A DNA stretch of 33,046 nt, from the NCBI GenBank assembly GCA_009693905.1, contig SHWG01000009.1, positions 1 through 33,046 of the forward strand. The letters are read 5' to 3'. The notes beneath the pieces are model-generated. The model saw nothing but the letters and a program-made list of their open reading frames with translations, ran no database searches and was not told the DNA's origin. This DNA comes from Rhodospirillales bacterium. GTDB taxonomy: Bacteria > Pseudomonadota > Alphaproteobacteria > Rhodospirillales > 2-12-FULL-67-15. This document shows positions 2,093 through 27,992 of this stretch, piece after piece. How positions within the stretch are numbered: the stretch's first letter is position 1; each line of letters opens with the position of its first letter. Both the position numbers and the translations under genes were made by a program.

Positions 2093-4252
2093 ATGAAAAA
2101 CTTGTGGTCCGACCGGGATGCCGAGGCGTGCGTCCGCCGCTACGCCAAGGACGGCGTTTCGCGCGATCTCGCGCTCCGGGTTTACACCACCCGGCTCTTG
2201 GGCGGCGAGCCCCGCCTGGTGCTGCACGGCGGCGGCAACACCTCGGTCAAGACGCGCATGCGCGACCTCGCAGGCCAAGACGTGGACGTGCTCTGCGTCA
2301 AGGGTTCGGGCTGGGACATGGCGGCGATCGAGCCTGCGGGCCTGCCTGCGGTGCGCTTGCAGCCGCTGCTCGGCCTCTTGAAACTCAAAGTCCTTGCGGA
2401 CGAGGACATGGTCAACGTCCAGCGCGGCAATCTCCTCGATTCCGCTTCGCCCAATCCCTCGGTCGAGACCCTGTTGCACGCCTTCATCCCGCACGCTTTC
2501 ATCGACCACACCCATTCCAACGCGGTTCTGGCGCTGACCGACCAGCCGGACCCGGAGCGGCTTTGCCGCGAGGTGTACGGCGCGAAGCTGGCTTATGTGC
2601 CCTACATCATGCCCGGCTTCGCGTTGGCCAAGAAAGCCGCCGAGATTTACCGCTGCAACCCCGGGGTCGAGGGGCTGATTCTCTTGAAGCACGGCATATT
2701 CACTTTCGGGCGGACGGCCAAGGAAGCCTACGGGCGCATGATCCGCCATGTCTCGGCGGCCGAGGCGCGCATCGGCCGGGCCTCACGCCAGGTCTTCGCC
2801 GCCGGGCGCGCACGCGCCAAAAACATCAATTCGGGCGGCGATCCGAGCGCCCGATCTTTTGTTTCGGCGGTCTTCGCCGCACGGGCGCTGCCCAAAAAGA
2901 TCGCCGAGGCTTCGGACGTGGCGCCGATCTTGCGCGGCCTGCTCGCCATTCCGCTCGATCCCGAAGCGCGCGGTCCCGCCGACAGGCGGGCCAATAACGA
3001 ATGGAAACGCCTGGTGTTCGATTTCCGCGCCGGCCCGGCCGTCCGCGCGTTCGTCGCCGGCCGCGATCTCGGCCGCTACAGCCAGGCCGGCACCGCCACC
3101 CCCGATCACGTCATCCGCACCAAGCAGAAACCCTTGATCGTGCCGGCGCCGCGGGCCAGAAAGCTCGATGATTTCCGCGCCGGCGCGAGCAAGGCGCTGG
3201 AAAAATACGTCGCCGGCTACCGCGCCTATTTCGCCCGCAACAACAAACGCTTCAAGGGCGCGAAAAAAGAACTCGATCCGATTCCGCGCGTCGTCCTGGT
3301 GCCCGGACTCGGGCTGTTCGGCCTGGGCGAATCGCGCAACGCGGCCCGGATCGCCGCCGACCTCGCCGAAACCAACATCGAGGTGATCGGCAATGCCGAG
3401 GCGCTCGGGCGCTATCAGGTGATCTCCGAGCCCGACACCTTCGATATCGAATATTGGTCCTTGGAGCAGGCAAAACTAGGCCATGGCGCCGAGAAACCGC
3501 TCGCCCGGCACGTGGTCGCCGTGACCGGCGCGGGATCGGGCATCGGCGCGGCGACGGCGCGCGCGTTTGCCGCCGCCGGGGCCGAGGTGTGCGTGCTCGA
3601 TCGGGACGCGAACGCGGCCGCGAGCGTGGCCCAGGCGGTCAAGGGCCTGGCGGTCGCCTGCGACGTGACCGATCCCAAATCCGTGCGCGCGGCGTTCGCG
3701 CGCATCGCCGCGACCTACGGCGGCGTGGACATCGTGGTGTCCAACGCCGGGGCGGCCTGGCAGGGCCGGATCGGCGACGTGGACGACGCGACGTTGCGCC
3801 AAAGTTTCGAGTTGAACTTTTTCGCCCACCAGGCGGTGGCGCAAAACGCGGTGCGGATCATGCGCGCCCAAGGTCTCGGCGGCTGTCTCCTGTTCAACAC
3901 CTCGAAGCAGGCGATCAACCCGGGGCGCGACTTCGGCCCCTATGGGCTGCCCAAGGCGGCGACGTTGTTTTTGATGAAACAATATGCGCTGGATCACGGT
4001 GCCGACGGCATCCGCTCGAATGCGGTCAACGCCGACCGGATTCGTTCGGGATTATTGACCGACTCCATGATTGCGGCACGCTCCAAGGCGCGCGGCGTGA
4101 GCGAGCGGGACTACATGGCCGGCAATCTGCTCGGCCAAGAAGTGACCGCCGACGACGTGGCGCGCGAGTTCGTGGCGCTCGCGCTCGCCAAGAAAACCAC
4201 GGCGGCGATCGTCACCGTGGACGGCGGCAACATCGAGGCGAGCTTGCGCTAA
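2093..4252 (+). CDS. Bifunctional class II aldolase / short-chain dehydrogenase (RhaD-like two-domain protein)
   Basis: A 719-residue fusion. Residues about 25-240 are a class II (zinc) aldolase/adducin domain: HGGGNTS at 45-51, zinc ligands H139 and H141 in DHTHSNAV, and H200 in LLKHGIF. Residues about 470-719 are a Rossmann short-chain dehydrogenase: TGAGSGIG at 478-485, SNAG at 550-553, S604 in NTSKQ, and the catalytic Y617-x3-K621. Family members cleave a ketose-1-phosphate such as rhamnulose-1-phosphate to DHAP plus an aldehyde and oxidise the aldehyde; the sugar is not identifiable here and no other sugar genes are adjacent. An AAGGAGG at 2085-2091 is unusually close to this ATG, so the TTG at 2102 is an alternative start. 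Residues about 234-265, in the linker between domains, are encoded by the 78-bp-period repeat described separately. Confidence 0.9.
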   Translation: MKNLWSDRDAEACVRRYAKDGVSRDLALRVYTTRLLGGEPRLVLHGGGNTSVKTRMRDLAGQDVDVLCVKGSGWDMAAIEPAGLPAVRLQPLLGLLKLKVLADEDMVNVQRGNLLDSASPNPSVETLLHAFIPHAFIDHTHSNAVLALTDQPDPERLCREVYGAKLAYVPYIMPGFALAKKAAEIYRCNPGVEGLILLKHGIFTFGRTAKEAYGRMIRHVSAAEARIGRASRQVFAAGRARAKNINSGGDPSARSFVSAVFAARALPKKIAEASDVAPILRGLLAIPLDPEARGPADRRANNEWKRLVFDFRAGPAVRAFVAGRDLGRYSQAGTATPDHVIRTKQKPLIVPAPRARKLDDFRAGASKALEKYVAGYRAYFARNNKRFKGAKKELDPIPRVVLVPGLGLFGLGESRNAARIAADLAETNIEVIGNAEALGRYQVISEPDTFDIEYWSLEQAKLGHGAEKPLARHVVAVTGAGSGIGAATARAFAAAGAEVCVLDRDANAAASVAQAVKGLAVACDVTDPKSVRAAFARIAATYGGVDIVVSNAGAAWQGRIGDVDDATLRQSFELNFFAHQAVAQNAVRIMRAQGLGGCLLFNTSKQAINPGRDFGPYGLPKAATLFLMKQYALDHGADGIRSNAVNADRIRSGLLTDSMIAARSKARGVSERDYMAGNLLGQEVTADDVAREFVALALAKKTTAAIVTVDGGNIEASLR
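2793..2887 (+). repeat. Intragenic 78-bp-period element, copy A (in aldolase/SDR gene)
   Basis: The decamer TCTTCGCCGC at 2793 recurs at 2871, exactly 78 bases later. The sequence between aligns over its whole length with the copies at 9021, 10756 (minus), 12918 (minus) and 20817, including the GCGCGCACGCGCC block. It is read in frame as FAAGRARAK..., the same frame as the tandem array at 20817. An inner hairpin pairs TCGGGCG (2831-2837) perfectly with CGCCCGA (2848-2854). It falls in the poorly conserved linker between the two enzyme domains. Confidence 0.75.
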
Positions 4253-4257
4253 AAACC

Positions 4258-4280
4258 CCCTCCCCCCTTGCGGGGGAGGG
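4258..4280. repeat. Small GC-rich palindrome between genes
   Basis: CCCTCCCCC (4258-4266), loop CTTGC, GGGGGAGGG (4272-4280): a perfect 9-bp stem starting six bases after the aldolase/SDR stop. The plus-strand side is followed by more G-rich sequence rather than T's, so it is not a typical terminator in that direction. On the minus strand a run of T's does follow. Very similar short palindromes are common between genes in many GC-rich proteobacteria, so I call it a dispersed intergenic repeat. Confidence 0.55.
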
Positions 4281-4312
4281 CTGGGGTGGGGAGGCTGTTC
4301 CGCGATAAGCCC

Positions 4313-5221: not shown

Positions 5222-5506
5222 CCGTTCCCGGGGCTCCGCCCCCTGAACCGACATCTTGACAATATTCCTATCATAGGGTATATCTTCTGTCCAAGCGATT
5301 CTTGAGTTCTTGGACAAGTGAAAAGATTTTTCCGCCCCCGCGAAACCTGTCCCCGCGCAGGCGGGGAGCGGGGGAGGCAAAAGGCGAGGAATGACGAGCG
5401 AAGATGAGCGAATCGCGTCGATTCGAGGTGGTTTCGTGGCGGATCAATGGGTTACACGCTTTTTGCCTGTGTAAACCTCCCTCCAACCCCCCGCGAAGCT
5501 TGCTCC
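5222..5506. other. Gene-free stretch with three inverted repeats
   Basis: No convincing gene in 285 bases between convergent genes. Structures seen: GGGGC-TCC-GCCCC (5230-5242) just after the VOC stop; TGTCCAAG (5288-5295) pairing with CTTGGACA (5309-5316); a nested GC hairpin with inner CCCCGC/GCGGGG (5351-5366) inside outer CCCCCGC/GCGGGGG (5335-5374); and CGAATCG-CGT-CGATTCG (5409-5425). A promoter-like site (separate entry) points into this block. The nested hairpin resembles dispersed intergenic repeats of GC-rich alphaproteobacteria. Short frames here (5271-5486 minus, 5404-5685 plus) look like accidental translations of it. Confidence 0.6.
5256..5284 (+). promoter_or_regulatory. Orphan sigma-70-like promoter with a palindromic spacer
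   Basis: TTGACA (5256-5261), exactly 17 bases, then TATATC (5279-5284). The spacer holds the palindrome CCTAT-C-ATAGG (5267-5277), placed where a repressor could sit. Predicted transcription would start near 5291, at the foot of the TGTCCAAG/CTTGGACA hairpin, and run into the gene-free block towards the 3' end of the convergent cyclophilin gene. No plus-strand protein gene follows, so the product, if any, would be a small or antisense RNA. Confidence 0.4.
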
Positions 5507-8913: not shown

Positions 8914-9558
8914 ATGCGCACCGACAAGCCCGGCCCCGCCCGCCCGCGCCCCGATAGTGGCGGACCATTTAATGCGCGCGGGGATTCGCCCGCGCGCCTC
9001 CCTTCGGCCGATTCGTTCAGCCCGAGCGCGCACGCGCCAAAAATCCATGACCCGGCGGCGGATCGGGCGCCCGGTCATGTTTCTGGGCGGCCTGCGCCGC
9101 CGGGCGTGCGGCTCGCGCTCTATCAGCCGGACATCCCCGGCAACGCGGGCAACATGCTGCGCACCGCCGCCGGCCTGGGCGTGCCGGTGGACCTGATCGG
9201 CCCGCTCGGTTTCGCCTTCGACGACAAGCGCCTGAAGCGCGCCGGCATGGACTACCTGAAGTGCGCCGACATCGTCCGGCACGTGTCCTGGGAGGCGTTC
9301 CGCCAGGGCCTCGGCGCGCGCCGGCTTCTCCTCCTCACCACCCGGGGCGAGACCGCCTACACCGAGTTCCGGTTCCGCCCGGGCGACGTGATCCTGATGG
9401 GACGCGAAAGCGAAGGCGCGTCCGAACATGTCCGCGCCGCCGCCCAGGCACGACTCCGGATTCCGCTCCGCCCCGGGCTTCGGTCCTTGAACGTGGCCGC
9501 GGCGGCGGCCATGGTCTTGGGCGAGGCGCTCCGGCAACTGGATGGTTTTCCCCCATGA
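8914..9558 (+). CDS. trmL: tRNA (cytidine(34)-2'-O)-methyltransferase TrmL (SPOUT family), with repeat-derived N-terminal extension
   Basis: Methylates the wobble ribose of certain leucine tRNAs using SAM. The SPOUT domain starts at [15 protein letters not shown] and includes [10 protein letters not shown], the knot motif [10 protein letters not shown] and the C-terminal [17 protein letters not shown]. TrmL is normally about 150-155 residues; from the ATG at 8914 (AAAGG 7 bases upstream) this one has 214. The extra 64 residues are Pro/Ala/Ser-rich, and about half come from the 78-bp-period element (9021-9106). A GTG at 9106, the first codon after the element, would give a standard 150-residue enzyme but has no visible ribosome site. 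Either the element now encodes an N-terminal tail or it has displaced the original start region. An ATG at 8884 and a GTG at 8875 are further in-frame options. The stop overlaps hemF by 4 bases. Confidence 0.85.
9021..9106 (+). repeat. Intragenic 78-bp-period element, copy B (front of trmL)
   Basis: CCCGAGCG at 9021 and GCCGGGCG at 9099 mark the 78-base period. The interior aligns with copies A, C, D and E. Read in the trmL frame it gives [14 protein letters not shown]...SGRPAPPG, colinear with the peptides of copies C and D. An inner hairpin pairs CATGACC (9046-9052) perfectly with GGTCATG (9073-9079), using different bases from copy A at the matching place. Confidence 0.75.
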
Positions 9559-10424: not shown

Positions 10425-11781
10425 ACATTTCTTTCAGTTCGGCCAGGCACTCTTCCCGCCCGGCCCTGAAGTCGCCTTCGATCCACCAGCGTTCGAGTTC
10501 GTGCAACAGTACGCCCATGCGTTCGCCGGCCGGAATCCCGAGCGCCAGCGCGTCGCGCCCTTTCACGGGGAACTGGACCGGGGTCCAGGCCATCGCGTCC
10601 CGCACCAGCGCGGTCCAGGCGTCGTTGCGCCCCGGCGGCAGGTGGGAATCTTTTGCGATCTCCTCGGACCAGGCCAGCAGCGCGAGATCGCGCGCGACGT
10701 CCGAACCGAGCTCGTGGAACGCGCGGCGGCGGGCACGGACGTCCATCTCCGGGCCGAGCGCGCCCGGCGGCGCAGGCCGCCCAGACGAAAGCCCGGGCGC
10801 CGAGGACGCCGCCGGGTCTTTGGGTTGGGGCGCTCGCGCGCCCGGCGGCGCGGCGAGCAGCGCGAAACGGTCGCGCTCGGCATTGGAGAATTTGAGCCGC
10901 GCGGCGATGCGAAGCGCGCCCGCGTGGTCCGCGCGCGCGAGCGCGGCGAGGCGGCGGAGCGCATCGGGTTCGAGCCCATCCAGTTTGAGCGCGGTCGTCG
11001 TCAGCCACGCCTCGACCCGCAGCCGGCCGATATCCCCGGCCTCGGGCAGAACGCGCTCCAGGACCCGCTCGCTCTGCATGAGCGAGACCGTCGCAGCCGG
11101 GTCGGGCGCGAGCAGGATGCGAAACAATTCCGCCCGCACCCGCTCGCCCGAGAGCGTATCGACCAGGGGCGCGAGACCGCGGCAGGCGGAAAGAGCATCC
11201 GGATCGAGCGGCGGGCGGCCGAAGGTCGCGTAGAAGCGGAAAAAACGGAGCAGGCGCAGGGCGTCTTCCTGGATTCGCTCGACGGCGCGGCCGACGAAGC
11301 GGATTCGCCCCTGGGCGAGATCGAGCATGCCGTCGAAAGGGTCGTAGATGTCGCCCGCGGGCGAGCACGACATCGCGTTGATGGTAAAATCGCGCCGGGC
11401 CGCGTCCGCCGCCCAGTCGTCGGTGAAGGCGACCTTGGCCCGCCGTCCGTCGGTTTCGACGTCGATCCGGAGCGTCGTGATCTCGAAGTGGCGCTCGCCG
11501 ATCACCGCGGTCACGGTGCCGTGCGCGATGCCGGTCGGGATCGCGCGGATGCCCGCGGCATCGAGGAGCGCGATCGCCTTCTCCGGCGGATCGTGGGTGG
11601 CGAGGTCGATGTCATTGACGGGACGCTGCGCGAGCGCGTCGCGCACGCAGCCGCCGACGAAGCGCACCTCGGCGCCGTCGCGCCCGAGCGCGGCGACGAC
11701 GGCGCGCGTTTCCGCAAACTCCATCCACGGCTGGGGCGGGAGCTTGCCGGTCGGCGCCAAGGGCTGTTTGCGATCCTGCAT
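10408..11781 (-). CDS. CCA-adding enzyme / poly(A) polymerase family nucleotidyltransferase, with repeat insertion
   Basis: A class II nucleotidyltransferase of 457 residues. The catalytic head shows GGCVRD (43-48), the metal-binding DID (D57, D59), the [10 protein letters not shown] motif (128-137) and the RNA-binding neck (RFVGRA...[12 protein letters not shown], 161-183). The C-terminal half is helical. Alphaproteobacterial relatives are about 400-420 residues and probably complete the CCA end of tRNA; pcnB-type activity cannot be excluded. Residues about 311-342 are encoded by the 78-bp-period element and separate DRFALLA from the helix [16 protein letters not shown], so an otherwise continuous helical domain carries a 30-residue Pro/Ala/Gly/Ser loop. 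The start is 7 bases after the DUF6111 stop, in the same operon; the 3' end overlaps hemF. Confidence 0.92.
10756..10851 (-). repeat. Intragenic 78-bp-period element, copy C (in nucleotidyltransferase gene)
   Basis: GCGCCCGGCGG occurs at 10760 and again at 10838, 78 bases apart. Read on the gene strand it gives APPGARAP...[10 protein letters not shown]...SGRPAPPGA, nearly the same peptide as copy D and in the same frame as B and D. It is an exact codon multiple and keeps the host frame open. It aligns base for base with D over most of its length. Confidence 0.8.
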
Positions 11782-12091: not shown

Positions 12092-12813
12092 GTCGCGTCC
12101 GGAGCGCGCGGGCTTAACCCCGCGCGCGCTATATGATCCGCCCCTGCCGGGGCGCGGCGGAGGAACTCGTGGAGATTCATCAACATCCCCGCCGTCGCCC
12201 CCCAGATGTAATGATCGTGCCAGCGCATGGCGTAGTAGTGGCGCGTCACGCCCTCAAGCGTGCGGCTGTGGCGCTGGTGATTGGCGGGGTCGAGCAGGAA
12301 TCCGAGCGGAACCTCGAACACATCCGCGACCTCGGTTGGGTCGGGGGCGATCGCGAAGGGGGGCGTGACGAGTCCGATCACCGGGGTCACGTCGAAGCCG
12401 GTGCGGGTGACGTAGCGGTCGAGCCGTCCGATCACGCGAATGTGACGGCGATGAAGTCCGACTTCCTCTTCCGTCTCGCGCAGCGCGGCTTCCTCGGGCC
12501 GGGTGTCGTCGGCTTCCATATGTCCGCCGGGAAAGCTGATTTGGCCGGCGTGGTGGGCGAGGTTGGCGGTCCTGAGCGTGAACAGGACGGTCGGACTTGG
12601 GGTCCTGGCGACGATGGGCACCAGCACCGCCGCTGGGCATAAAACGCTTTTGACGGCCATGTCCGGATTGAGATCGTGGTCGCCGCGCAGCGCCATCCCC
12701 GGCGAGCGCGCGTCCGGCGCGCGGCCGTCGAGGGCGGCGAAACGCCGGACCAGCGCGTCCAGGGTGACCGATCCGTCGTGGGCGCTTGCCTTCATGGGTC
12801 GAGGTATGTTCAA
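12088..12813 (-). CDS. Nudix hydrolase, CoA pyrophosphatase type
   Basis: A 241-residue Nudix protein with the CoA-specific variant of the box: QISFPGGHMEADD followed by EEAALRETEEEVGL, with the catalytic glutamates in the REtEEE core. The preceding TANLAHHAGQ corresponds to the UPF0035 motif of CoA diphosphatases, which split CoA into 3',5'-ADP and 4'-phosphopantetheine. Start: the TTG at 12813 has GAAGGCGG 6 bases upstream, while the ATG at 12795 (MKASAH) has no obvious ribosome site; either is possible. The last ~20 residues (after FLRRAPAG) are encoded by a second repeat type shared with 21862-21926, so the natural C-terminus appears to have been extended right up to the stop that overlaps the next gene. 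Confidence 0.88.
   Translation of the reverse strand: MNIPRPMKASAHDGSVTLDALVRRFAALDGRAPDARSPGMALRGDHDLNPDMAVKSVLCPAAVLVPIVARTPSPTVLFTLRTANLAHHAGQISFPGGHMEADDTRPEEAALRETEEEVGLHRRHIRVIGRLDRYVTRTGFDVTPVIGLVTPPFAIAPDPTEVADVFEVPLGFLLDPANHQRHSRTLEGVTRHYYAMRWHDHYIWGATAGMLMNLHEFLRRAPAGADHIARAGLSPRAPDAT
12100..12160 (+). repeat. Second dispersed element (about 60 bp), copy 1, at the 3' end of the Nudix gene
   Basis: Aligns with 21862-21926: both read CGGAGC then CGCGGGCTTAACCCCGCG, then a TAT...GAT segment and a CGGGGCGCG end. It forms a 9-bp hairpin GCGCGCGGG/CCCGCGCGC with loop CTTAAC, plus GCCCC-TGCC-GGGGC. Here it is antisense to its host gene, unlike the copy at 21862; the translated Nudix tail is ARAGLSPRAPDAT. 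It ends nine bases before the coupled stop/start with the DUF6111 gene. Confidence 0.7.
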
Positions 12814-12829: not shown

Positions 12830-13450
12830 TTATATTCTGGACCGGGGCGACTCGGATTCGGGCTGTTCCAGGGAAAAGAACGCCCCCGCGCTCCAGACCC
12901 CCATGGTCCGGCCGCCCGCGCCCGGCGGCGCAGGCCGCCCAGACGAAAGACCGGGCGCCGAGGATGCCGCCGGGTCATTAAGTTGGGGCGCCTGCGCGCC
13001 CGGCCCTTCCACGGCCAGGCCCGCCAATTCATAATACACCGGACGCGCGATCAGGGCGTCCAATCCGGGCCGGACGGCGACATAGGGCTTGGGCCCGCCG
13101 CTTCCGGGGTCGCAAGCGATGCGCATGGGGTGGTCGGGGCCGATGAGGACCCAATCGTCCACATTGGTTCTGAGCCGAAGCGTCTGGCTCGTGCCCCCGC
13201 CCTCGTGCGCCAATTCGACGCCAAGAAAAGGGGCGTCTTCGACCCGAATACGCGCTTTTTCCACAGGGGTCACCAGCCAGAACGATCCATCTTCGCCGCG
13301 CGCGAGAACCCGCGCGAACAGCCGCACCAGTTCTTTGCGGCCGATGGGGCTGCCGTGGTAATACCATGTTCCATCCGCCGCGATCCTGAGGTCGATATCG
13401 CCGCAGATCATGGGATTAGGCGACGTTCTCGGGTCTCTGTCCTTCGGCAT
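12830..13450 (-). CDS. DUF1285 domain protein
   Basis: 206 residues from the ATG at 13450. The N-terminal part is typical of DUF1285: ICGDIDLRIAADGTWYY, GSPIGRKELVRLFARVL, FWLVTPVEKARI and DAPFLGVEL. A second half has DDWVLIGPDHPMRI and LIARPVYYELAGLA. The family is widespread in alphaproteobacteria, has known structures and no established function. The copy-D repeat (about 29 residues) is inserted between AVEGPG and the normal ending TMGVWSAGAFFSLEQ. It is first in the minus-strand group leading to the Nudix gene, 17 bases upstream of it. Its start codon lies only 28 bases from the divergent moxR start, so each promoter must lie in or very near the other gene. An ATG at 13411 is an alternative start. 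Confidence 0.85.
   Translation of the reverse strand: MPKDRDPRTSPNPMICGDIDLRIAADGTWYYHGSPIGRKELVRLFARVLARGEDGSFWLVTPVEKARIRVEDAPFLGVELAHEGGGTSQTLRLRTNVDDWVLIGPDHPMRIACDPGSGGPKPYVAVRPGLDALIARPVYYELAGLAVEGPGAQAPQLNDPAASSAPGLSSGRPAPPGAGGRTMGVWSAGAFFSLEQPESESPRSRI
12918..13004 (-). repeat. Intragenic 78-bp-period element, copy D (in DUF1285 gene)
   Basis: GCGCCCGGC occurs at 12918 and 12996, 78 bases apart. The encoded peptide [17 protein letters not shown]...[10 protein letters not shown] matches copy C residue for residue except at about four positions, and uses the same frame as B and C. It lies 20 codons before the natural C-terminal strand of the DUF1285 protein and leaves the downstream frame intact. 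Confidence 0.8.
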
Positions 13451-14541: not shown

Positions 14542-15423
14542 ATGAAGGCAACCGGCGCCGATCTCCACCACCGGGCCGAACTGCTGACGGCGCCGCTGCC
14601 GCCGCTCATGGTCGCGGCCAAGCGCGTCGCCAGCACGGTCGCGCAAGGGGTGCACGGCCGCCGCCGCGTCGGCCAGGGCGAAACCTTCTGGCAGTTCCGC
14701 CGCTACCAGCCCGGCGATTCGACGTCGAGCATCGACTGGCGGCGCTCGGCGAAATCGAGTCATCTCTACGTCCGCGAAACCGAATGGGAGGCGGCGCAAA
14801 GCGTCTGGTTGTGGCGCGATGCCTCGGCCTCCATGTCCTATGCGTCCGCGCCCGAATTCGCGCCCAAGCGCCGGCGCGCCGAGTTGCTGCTGCTGGCGCT
14901 GAGTGTATTGTTAATTCGCGGCGGCGAGCGCGTCGCCGTGCTCGGCGCCGGGCTCCGTCCGGCTTCGGGCCGGACGGTGCTGACGCGGATCGCGCACATG
15001 CTCGAAGACGGCGAGCCCGCGACGACGAGCTTGCCCGCACCCGAGGCGTTGCCGCGTTATGCCCGTATCGTTCTTATCGGCGATTTCCTGTCGCCGCTTG
15101 CGGAGGTCAAGGCCGCGATCGCCGCCTTCGACGCCTTCGGCGTGCGCGGACATATTCTTCAAGTGCTCGATCCGGCCGAGGAAACGCTCCCCTTTGCCGG
15201 GCGGGTGCGTTTTCTCGGGCCCGAGGCGGAAGGCGCGGCGCTGATCGGTCGGGCCGAAACCGCCGGAGCCGACTACGCCCGGGCGATGGCGGCGCATCAG
15301 GCGGGGCTTGGCCTTCTCGCCCGCTCGGCGGGCTGGGGTTTTTTCCGCCACCGCACCGATCGTTCGCCGGAGGCGGCGTTGCTCGCGCTCTATCTCGGGC
15401 TCGCCGAGCCCGTGTCGGGATAA
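14542..15423 (+). CDS. DUF58 domain protein (MoxR partner)
   Basis: 293 residues. The DUF58 core is clear: RRVGQGETFWQFRRYQPGDS (41-60) then SSIDWRRSAKSSHLYVRE (62-79), followed by a degenerate VWA-like fold with WLWRDASASMSY near 105-116. No membrane helix, so cytosolic or peripheral. DUF58 proteins pair with MoxR ATPases and BatA-type membrane proteins; the cluster may act in envelope or stress maintenance, but no client is known. The ATG at 14542 has GGAGAAA upstream, and the gap to moxR is 25 bases. The next gene's GTG begins one base after this stop. Confidence 0.9.
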   Translation: MKATGADLHHRAELLTAPLPPLMVAAKRVASTVAQGVHGRRRVGQGETFWQFRRYQPGDSTSSIDWRRSAKSSHLYVRETEWEAAQSVWLWRDASASMSYASAPEFAPKRRRAELLLLALSVLLIRGGERVAVLGAGLRPASGRTVLTRIAHMLEDGEPATTSLPAPEALPRYARIVLIGDFLSPLAEVKAAIAAFDAFGVRGHILQVLDPAEETLPFAGRVRFLGPEAEGAALIGRAETAGADYARAMAAHQAGLGLLARSAGWGFFRHRTDRSPEAALLALYLGLAEPVSG

Positions 15424-20749: not shown

Positions 20750-21775
20750 ATGAACAGGGCACGGCAAATAGCGTGGGCGTTGCTGTGGGCGCGGGCGTGC
20801 GGGGCGCTGTCGGTGTCCCTGCCTTTTGTCTTGGCGGCCTTCGCCGCCGGGCGCGCACGCGCCAAAATCCAAAGACTCGGCGGCGTTCTTCGCGCCCTGC
20901 CTTTTGTCTTGGCGGCCTTCGCCGCCGGGCGCGCACGCGCCAAAATCCAAAGACTCGGCGGCGTTCTTCGCGCCCTGCCTTTTGTCTTGGCGGCCTTCGC
21001 CGCCGGGGCCGCCGAGCCGGAGAGCGTCGATCTCGAGCTCGTTCTCGCCATCGACGTTTCGGGCAGCATCGATCCCGAGGAGGCGGCGTTGCAACGCCGC
21101 GGTTACGTCGGCGCCCTCCAGGACGAGCGCGTGATCAACGCGATCAAAGCCGGCTTTCACGGCCGCATCGGTGTCACCTATTTCGAATGGGCGGGCATCC
21201 ACCACCGGCGCACGGTCGCCGACTGGGCCACGATCGGCGACGCGGCGTCGGCCCGTGCGTTCGCCGACTGGATCGAGGCGCAAGCCATCGGCGCCGGGGC
21301 GTGGACCTCGATCTCGGGCGCGATCGAATTCGCGCTCCAGCGCTTCGCCGACAGCCCCTACAAGAGCCGGCGCCGCGTGCTCGACATTTCCGGCGACGGA
21401 CCCAATAACAACGGCCCCTTCGTGGTCGAATGGCGCGACCGGGCGCTGGCGCAAGGAATCATCATCAACGGGTTGCCGATCGTCAACGATCGGCCGAGCC
21501 GCTGGGGCCTGCCGCCGTTTCTCGACCTCGACCTCTATTTCGAGGACTGTGTCATCGGCGGGCGCGGCGCGTTCATCGTGGTGGCGAAAAATTTTGCCGA
21601 CTTCGCCTCGGCGATTCGCCGCAAGCTGATCCTGGAGATCGCGGATTTGCACCCGTCGCAAGCGGGGCGTCTCGTTCCCGCGGCCGAACACATCCGCCCG
21701 CGCGGGCGCTCAGGTCCCCGTCCGCCGTGCGACTCCGGCGAACAGGAACGCATGCAACGCCGGATCGACCGCTGA
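20750..21775 (+). CDS. Secreted DUF1194 (VWA-like) protein with a tandem repeat in its signal-peptide region
   Basis: 341 residues from the ATG at 20750; an ATG at 20717 would add 11. From residue 92 on it is a DUF1194 domain: VDLELVLAIDVSGSID with the MIDAS motif DVSGS (102-106), RRGYVGAL, YFEWAG, DWATIGD, SISGAIEFAL, VLDISGDGPNN, GLPIVNDR and FEDCVIGGRGAF. The family is found in alphaproteobacteria and has no known function; the MIDAS suggests metal-dependent protein binding outside the cytoplasm. The hydrophobic leader (about 6-34) is followed by a perfect 26-residue repeat (24-49, 50-75, partial 76-86) carrying basic stretches RARAK and LPFVLAAFAAG. So there are three hydrophobic, signal-like cores before the mature protein. 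A second DUF1194 gene follows 10 bases downstream. Confidence 0.88.
   Translation: MNRARQIAWALLWARACGALSVSLPFVLAAFAAGRARAKIQRLGGVLRALPFVLAAFAAGRARAKIQRLGGVLRALPFVLAAFAAGAAEPESVDLELVLAIDVSGSIDPEEAALQRRGYVGALQDERVINAIKAGFHGRIGVTYFEWAGIHHRRTVADWATIGDAASARAFADWIEAQAIGAGAWTSISGAIEFALQRFADSPYKSRRRVLDISGDGPNNNGPFVVEWRDRALAQGIIINGLPIVNDRPSRWGLPPFLDLDLYFEDCVIGGRGAFIVVAKNFADFASAIRRKLILEIADLHPSQAGRLVPAAEHIRPRGRSGPRPPCDSGEQERMQRRIDR
20817..21007 (+). repeat. Intragenic 78-bp element, locus E: perfect tandem array of 2.4 copies
   Basis: Units begin (CCCTGCC) at 20817, 20895 and 20973; the first two are identical over all 78 bases and the third stops after about 35. Each unit has GGCGGC-CTTC-GCCGCC followed by GGCGCG-CA-CGCGCC, two adjacent hairpins. 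No stop codon occurs in any of the six frames. It is read as LPFVLAAFAAG...RARAKIQRLGGVLRA in the host protein, the same frame as copy A. Confidence 0.92.
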
Positions 21776-21785
21776 AGGAAAATCC

Positions 21786-22573
21786 ATGGGCATCCGGGGA
21801 ATTCGGGTTGCGGCGTGGGTGTTCGCAGGCTTGGCGGTGCTTAGCGCGGCCGCGCCCCGGGCGGAGCTCGCGGGCTTAACCCCGCGCGCAGTATTAGATA
21901 CTGCGCTCCTATCGGGGCGCGCCGAAATTCCGGTCGATCTCGAGCTGGTGCTCGCCGCCGACGGTTCCGGCTCGATCGACGACGAGGAATTGAAGTTCCA
22001 GCGCCACGGCTACGCCGAGGCGCTGGCGCATCCGCGCGTGCTGGCGGCGATCCAGTCGGGTTTCCACAAGACGATCGCGGTCGCCTACATCGAGTGGGCG
22101 CGCCCCAGTCCCAGCACATCATCGCCGACTGGACGGTGATCCGCGACGAAGCCTCGGCCCGGGCCTTCGGCGCGACGCTGATCGGCACCCCGCGCGCCGC
22201 CTGGGGCTACAACTCGATCTCCAACGCCATCGCTTTTTCCGCCCACCTGATCGAAACCAACGCCTACAAGGGCACCCGGCGGGTCATCGATGTCTCGGGC
22301 GACGGGCCGCAGATCGGCGGTCGGCCCCTGGAAGAGGTCCGGCGCGAGACGGTTGCCCAAGGCATCACCATCAACGCCCTGGTGATCGAGACCTCGGCCG
22401 GGAGCCTGCGCGGCCCCGGGGGCATTTCGCTCGTCGAGCATTACGAGCGCGATGTCATCGGCGGCGCCGGCGCCTTCATCGCGGTCGCGCGCGAGCGCGG
22501 CCGATTCTCCGAGACGGTCCTCAAGAAGCTTGTGCTGGAGATCGCGGGCGTGGGAGAAACGGCGAACCCATGA
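21786..22573 (+). pseudogene. Second DUF1194 protein, frameshifted
   Basis: Paralogue of the preceding gene. Frame 1 (21786-22139) encodes a signal peptide (RVAAWVFAGLAVLSAAAPRAE), a repeat-derived segment (residues about 28-47), the MIDAS region VDLELVLAADGSGSID and AYIEWA. The rest (DWTVIRDEASARAF, SISNAIAFSAHL, VIDVSGDGPQ, YERDVIGGAGAF) reads in the +2 frame up to 22573. The total length is one base short of a codon multiple. One extra base near 22097-22101, just before or within GCGCGCCCC, would join the halves as EWGAPQSQHIIADW, giving about 262 residues. Real loss or an assembly deletion; the remaining sequence shows no other damage. The stop overlaps the GST start. Confidence 0.85.
21862..21926 (+). 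repeat. Second dispersed element (about 60 bp), copy 2, behind a signal peptide
   Basis: Shares the core CGCGGGCTTAACCCCGCG and flanking blocks with 12100-12160. It is read in frame as LAGLTPRAVLDTALLSGRAE (20 codons), placed between the signal peptide ending PRAE and the first DUF1194 strand IPVDLELV. The peptide before and after the inserted segment is RAE in both places. The sense orientation is opposite to that of the Nudix copy. Confidence 0.7.
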
Positions 22574-27735: not shown

Positions 27736-27965
27736 CCTCTGTCTTGCGACCTGAAAGATCCCCGGCCTTGCGCCGGACGCCGCTCGCGCGGGTATCCGAG
27801 CCGGTTACATCTTCGGTGAGAATCCCGCGCCGCCTGCGACGGGGATTCTACTTTCCAGAGTCTCGTTTGCCGCCGCGGTCCTTGAGGCCTGAGAGATTCC
27901 GGGGGAATTGCTCCTTCGGCGCCGTCGGGCCTCGATGTTCGGCCCGGCGGACTCTCCCGCGACAG
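27736..27965 (-). ncRNA. Tandem glycine riboswitch controlling gcvTHP
   Basis: Two glycine aptamers in series, read on the minus strand. Aptamer 1: GGAGAGT (27957-27951), CCGAAGGAGCAA (around 27922-27909) and the 3' side ATCTCTCAGG (around 27897-27887). Aptamer 2: ACTCTGGAAAGT, then CACCGAAGATGTAA and ATCTTTCAGG followed by GACAGAGG near 27742-27735. The linker is short and the order is that of the known glycine class. Because a terminator follows directly and the genes consume glycine, glycine binding most likely prevents termination. Aptamer 2 departs from the usual GGAGNAA (AGATGTAA here) but keeps the flanking conserved bases. Confidence 0.9.
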
Positions 27966-27992
27966 CGTCTTTGAGACGCGTGTCCGAATGGA

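Follow-up and report, generated by a model that had tools for sequence, protein, structure and literature searches.

The 78-bp unit repeated in tandem in a DUF1194 gene of this Rhodospirillales bacterium is very probably a non-autonomous mobile palindromic element of the MITE/REP class, which was inserted in the gene and then tandemly duplicated. The element is dispersed through the genome, and copies of it lie in frame within real genes, several of them at sites that are empty in related genomes. The window examined here is the whole stretch of 33,046 nucleotides (contig SHWG01000009.1, positions 1 to 33,046), which was drawn from a draft metagenome bin (82% complete, 132 contigs) and compared with the orthologous contigs of two genomes of the same genus, G001 and the near-complete G002.

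The Array in the DUF1194 Gene

The array sits between the signal peptide and the mature domain of a DUF1194 protein. The gene and the parts of the array are as follows:

20750..21775, plus strand: host gene for a DUF1194 (PF06707) protein (Pfam, 245 bits), its start placed by homology to the G001 orthologue MNRMRRTAWALLWAGACGALLASLPAGAAEPES
20817..21007, plus strand: tandem array of the 78-bp element, with its halves in the order B-A-B-A-B
20817..20850, plus strand: leading partial unit, the element's right half only
20851..20928, plus strand: full 78-bp unit 1, with CCGG at its end
20929..21006, plus strand: full 78-bp unit 2, identical to unit 1, with CCGG at its end
20824..21000, plus strand: 177 bp (59 codons) missing in the G001 orthologue, 177 being 2 × 78 + 21

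Tandem Repeats Finder reported 20817-21007 as 2.4 copies of a period of 78 with 100% matches. In this phase, 20817-20894 and 20895-20972 form two identical units, followed by a partial copy of 35 bp, as an earlier note on this DNA had described them. Relative to the element, the array begins internally at CCCTGCC, the first 7 bases of the leading partial unit. This 7-mer is native to the DUF1194 gene, since the same bases occur in the G001 gene, and all other copies of the element lack it. Neither G001 nor G002 holds a unit at this site, and the protein encoded in the window is 59 residues longer than MNRMRRTAWALLWAGACGALLASLPAGAAEPES. The same note had taken the amplification to be very recent, or else maintained by slippage or gene conversion; since the two orthologues hold zero units, while the units are identical to each other and about 24% different from other copies, the amplification was found to be both recent and local.

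A second DUF1194 gene lies at 21786-22573 and is split over two frames where it differs from G002 by one base, near 22100. This split would reflect a frameshift, a pseudogene, or an assembly error.

The Dispersed Palindromic Element

When the own genome was searched with the 78-bp unit, 56 matches were obtained, many of them partial and spread over dozens of contigs; the earlier note had overlooked this dispersal. The closest dispersed copies match the array unit over its whole length at 84–88% identity. Alignment of the copies gave an 85-column element, CCGGGCGCG-NNN-GCGCC...GGCGGCCTGCGCCGCCGGGCG, whose two arms fold back on each other and whose ends are CCGGGCGCG...CGCCGCCGG. A covariance model built for it yielded 110 matches in the own genome; because the element is a palindrome, many of these were one site matched on both strands, leaving approximately 57 distinct sites. 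The insert is 78 bp long and contains no gene.

The full foldback was paired in 83% of cells, against 34–41% when the partner was slid by 1–3 columns. Double-sided changes were observed at 8 foldback pairs, as in AAAGACC/GGTCTTT and CATGACC/GGTCATG, the excess of covariation being modest (24 to 63 of 500 shuffles reached the observed values). The copy in the DUF1194 gene, when folded alone, gave a z of −1.2, which is not clearly better than shuffles. Columns 1–17 and 65–82 were paired in 86.7% of cells and constitute imperfect terminal inverted repeats. At the gathering score, Rfam gave no match for the element. Its sole match in the window was located elsewhere, a glycine riboswitch aptamer at 27866-27969 on the minus strand (56.8 bits). 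No description of this element family was found in the literature.

Other repeats were also observed in the window. A second dispersed palindromic family of approximately 58 bp (CGCGCCCCGGTAGGGGCGCATCATTTAACGCGCGCGGGGATTCGCCCGCGCG) is located at 8943-8997 (plus), 12104-12158 (minus), and 21867-21922 (minus), and is repeated in G001 and G002 as well; its copy at 21867-21922, which G002 lacks at this position, falls where the neighbouring DUF1194 paralogue encodes its signal peptide. The repeated segments 4241-4309 and 5245-5328 match elsewhere in the same-genus genomes, the former having an inverted repeat of a C-run and a G-run downstream of the aldolase/dehydrogenase gene.

Empty Sites and the Insertion Target

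Further copies of the element in the window are listed below together with the comparison at each site:

2802..2886, plus strand: in-frame copy within a rhamnulose-phosphate aldolase/dehydrogenase-like gene (rhaD), where both relatives have 78 bp less
9022..9106, plus strand: at the N-terminal end of a TrmL/SpoU methyltransferase-like gene, where the sequence of the relatives differs
10761..10845, minus strand: in-frame copy within a CCA-adding/poly(A) polymerase-like gene (PcnB), where both relatives have 78 bp less
12919..13003, minus strand: in-frame copy within the C-terminal tail encoded by a DUF1285 gene, where G001 has 78 bp less

The differences at rhaD, PcnB and DUF1285 are exact. A GlnD-like gene on contig C1 likewise has exactly 78 bp less in both relatives, G002 is exactly 78 bp shorter at one site on contig C125, and exactly 156 bp are missing in a relative at two doublets. 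Such steps of 78 and 156 bp fit the copy-number changes by 26 residues that had been anticipated from the array. The inserts in DUF1194 (177 bp), at one C125 site (198 bp), on C83 (151 bp) and on C121 (73 bp) are not multiples of 78, and secondary events are therefore needed for these.

A CCGG was located at the empty junction of the relative at 6 of 11 sites (P about 1e-4 against the local background), the remaining 5 having none, and the inserted element bears CCGG at both ends. Judged from these junction sequences, CCGG is favoured as the insertion target; either a duplication of a 4-bp target or a joining 3′ of CCGG would fit such ends, and the two are indistinguishable here.

A doublet at 16032-16230 of C125 in the own genome (locus L094), compared with L074 and L101, has units that carry an extra 18-bp segment, giving a period of 96. 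Its site is empty in G001, which has an insertion of its own about 600 bp away, at a position empty in the own genome.

Coding Position and Host Genes

Reading frames were assigned with a codon model trained on hand-checked genes, which recovered the frame of 240-bp segments in 98% of cases on its own training set. By this model, the flanks of 15 sites of the own genome are coding in a single frame that runs through the insert, and nearly all inserts were stop-free (that at locus L010 has one stop). Homology added in-frame cases in the DUF1285 gene, the DUF1194 gene, and a SAM hydroxide adenosyltransferase-like gene. At least 15 in-frame copies lie in real genes, among them those for the aldolase/dehydrogenase, CCA-adding enzyme, GlnD, PBP1A, phytoene synthase, and MoeA. 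Many of the remaining sites are intergenic, at gene ends, or without a frame call.

The in-frame copies are located mostly at linkers, tails, or signal peptides. The copy at 2802..2886 directly follows the Aldolase_II match ahead of the SDR domain, and that at 10761..10845 is C-terminal to the RNA-binding domain, in the tail of PcnB. In Pfam searches, the insert fell between domains in the GlnD-like, SAM_HAT, and histidine-kinase genes. In those for phytoene synthase, MoeA, an M23 peptidase, and a FAD-binding flavoprotein of G001, it lay within a domain or at its edge. The inserts are read mostly in three of the six frames. They encode Pro/Ala/Gly-rich linkers of the type PGAxAPKxxDPAAxxAPG, or PGGAGRxxxxPGAxxAAG in the antisense direction, and another peptide of the type AGRxxA...LAAFAAG.

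Hairpins of the CGTC type, CGTCATGC...GCATGACG, were also observed beside or inside copies of the element, near 975-1000 of locus L018 and near 14740-14835 of locus L030, and a similar one at the TrmL site of G001. Their position suggests nested repeat families.

Six-Frame Openness

All six frames are free of stop codons in the single unit, in two units joined, and in the complete 191-bp array, and the earlier note had stated this for the unit. The significance that it attached to this property, namely that an insert could survive in any frame or orientation, was not upheld. The simulation that the note had proposed gave the outcome named there as refuting this point. In the contig, which has 68% G+C, 14.3% of the 78-bp windows had six open frames, as did 11.6% of GC-matched windows, while shuffles of the unit were six-frame open in 44% of cases when dinucleotides were preserved and in 2.7% when mononucleotides were. 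Nor is it a property of the family, since only 14 of 93 long copies have all six frames open, the rate for random 84-bp windows being 12.4%; per frame, the elements' own rate (415 of 558 frames open) is close to the mean of 71.6% for random windows. Six-frame openness is ordinary in such G+C-rich DNA, and these windows, shuffles, and other copies rule it out as a selected property. The frame is kept because the unit is 78 bp, or 26 codons, long and has one open frame, so that openness in all six is unnecessary.

Distribution among Genomes

The element was detected in all three genomes of the genus, namely the own genome, G001 (at least 33 sites examined), and G002 (8 matches). Some sites are common to the own genome and G001, others are private to one of the two, and private G001 insertions adjoin positions that are empty in the own genome. 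The element was absent from the remaining 57 relatives in the first sample, from every genome outside the genus in an order-wide search of 317 genomes, and, by the element model, from those outside the genus in a class sample of 385 genomes. A strict pattern search of 84,980 species, which may not include records of the window's own genome, matched 18 contigs, all of them from the same-genus MAG Rhodospirillales bacterium RIFCSPLOWO2_12_FULL_67_15, for which no literature was found.

Tandem Growth and Origin of the Array

Seven arrays are known in the own genome, one of them being covered by two loci and thus listed twice in the identity comparison. Units of one array share 95–100% identity, and copies from different sites 76% on average, and this near identity implies that the copies were multiplied in place or laid down together. 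For the DUF1194 gene, one copy would have been inserted in the signal-peptide region after the split from the two sampled relatives and then duplicated tandemly in place. An array of three units may subsequently have undergone an in-frame 57-bp deletion between CCCTGCC repeats, resulting in the observed B-A-B-A-B order of 2.4 units; a template switch would be an equivalent alternative to this deletion. With 26 codons per unit and one frame open, the gene stays open. The hydrophobic stretch of RARAKIQRLGGVLRALPFVLAAFAAG still stands ahead of the mature domain. The DUF1194 protein is probably still exported, and we infer that the array is neutral or nearly so.

An alternative course, which we consider unlikely, is that the arrays were not duplicated after insertion but arrived as multimers from a small circular intermediate, through rolling-circle or IS200/IS605-type single-strand transposition. 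It would account for period-78 arrays that are joined at CCGG and are near-identical inside but different between sites, for relatives that are empty rather than single-unit at the compared doublets, and for the start of the DUF1194 array in mid-element, like a copy of a permuted circle. The same picture, however, is obtained from simple unequal recombination, and single units make up 50 of the 58 groups. Furthermore, a search with positive controls for a Y1/RAYT transposase (PF01797) gave none in the three same-genus genomes, two of which are incomplete; this profile search, covering PF01797 only, identified no autonomous partner of the element.

The exact count of identical units rests on a metagenome assembly and needs read-level confirmation, and there is a small chance that the second unit is an artefact of this assembly, the true count being one or another number. 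The draft bin is divided over 132 contigs, the 191-bp array of identical 78-bp units is about as long as a short read or longer, and copies of the element also lie near contig ends (C78 and C16). Against an artefact stand several other doublets of the genome, whose units differ (95–99% identical) in a manner unlike a false expansion, and the difference of exactly 156 bp from the relatives at two doublets.

The array could also be regarded as selected, such that tandem copies tune DUF1194 export through signal-peptide-like hydrophobic repeats with the copy number as a switch, but this is very improbable. In the frame of the gene, each unit indeed encodes RARAKIQRLGGVLRALPFVLAAFAAG, a basic stretch followed by the hydrophobic LPFVLAAFAAG, and the hydropathy profile exhibits repeated peaks ahead of the mature domain. 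Yet the element also occurs in many unrelated genes, in other frames and with other peptides, and the frame is kept at every copy-number step, which provides no on/off switch. Least of all can the array be a purely local minisatellite formed by slippage of the gene's own signal-peptide sequence and unrelated to any other sequence, since, despite the perfect identity of its units and the native CCCTGCC that starts each of them and occurs in no other copy, dozens of dispersed copies match the unit and the orthologous sites of the relatives are empty of it.

Beyond insertion and tandem duplication of a mobile element, we only tentatively suggest that the element is currently or recently mobile, and that it generates protein linkers without loss of frame in this uncultured alphaproteobacterial genus, owing to its length of exactly 26 codons and its preference for two or three reading frames. 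It may also multiply head to tail within genes by a CCGG-joined mechanism of its own, with a hypothetical mobilising enzyme.

Comparison with Known Systems

Palindromes that insert in coding genes are best known from Rickettsia, which are obligate intracellular bacteria. The family described here is young, has cleanly empty sites and inserts of exactly 78 bp, and occupies different positions in two closely related species; the named member of its genus is a bin from an environmental metagenome. The choice of target, the tolerance of 26 additional residues, and tandem growth are therefore directly measurable by comparison.

The palindromic elements of Rickettsia (RPEs) and those of Wolbachia are short and dispersed; they lie both between and inside genes, and conserved metabolic genes are among those that carry them in frame (PMC2229807, PMC10969869). 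The present element is likewise a palindrome dispersed in many copies and in frame within conserved genes, and its in-frame inserts in rhaD, PcnB, DUF1285, and DUF1194 are missing from orthologues. By description, the two are set apart, as RPEs are 105–146 bp long and reside in obligate intracellular hosts, whereas a G+C-rich insert of 78 bp in an uncultured genus is found here.

REPs of the CGTC superfamily (RPE-4, RPE-6, and dRS3) are palindromic, occur mostly in alphaproteobacteria, often as dimers, and are intragenic in several species, with no known transposase (PMC3733652). The element resembles them in being palindromic, alphaproteobacterial, and intragenic. It differs in its longer two-arm foldback and in its head-to-tail doublets, which are negligible in CGTC REPs. 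Membership in this superfamily was rejected, as the CGTC/TGTC/CCTC tag occurs in 9 of 22 copies and is not conserved, and the tail columns read GGG or variants in place of a CCA tail.

MITEs such as Correia/NEMIS, ERIC, RUP, and QMITE are non-autonomous, measure 70–300 bp, and possess imperfect terminal inverted repeats, and in-frame fusions have been reported in several of their families (PMC10969869, PMC5896051). The element shares this size class, the lack of mobility genes of its own, and the imperfect terminal inverted repeats, but its ends are CCGG and not of the TA type seen in MITEs such as Correia/NEMIS. A hairpin at each end, a preferred tetranucleotide target, and clustered repeats would further liken it to the IS200/IS605-type REP/RAYT system; unlike that system, no PF01797 transposase was matched in the three same-genus genomes (two of them incomplete), and mobilisation by a RAYT was set aside. 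Functionally, the element works in the same manner as the protein-coding palindromes of Rickettsia and the intragenic REPs (PMC2229807, PMC10969869, PMC3733652), and we regard it as a new family of a known kind.
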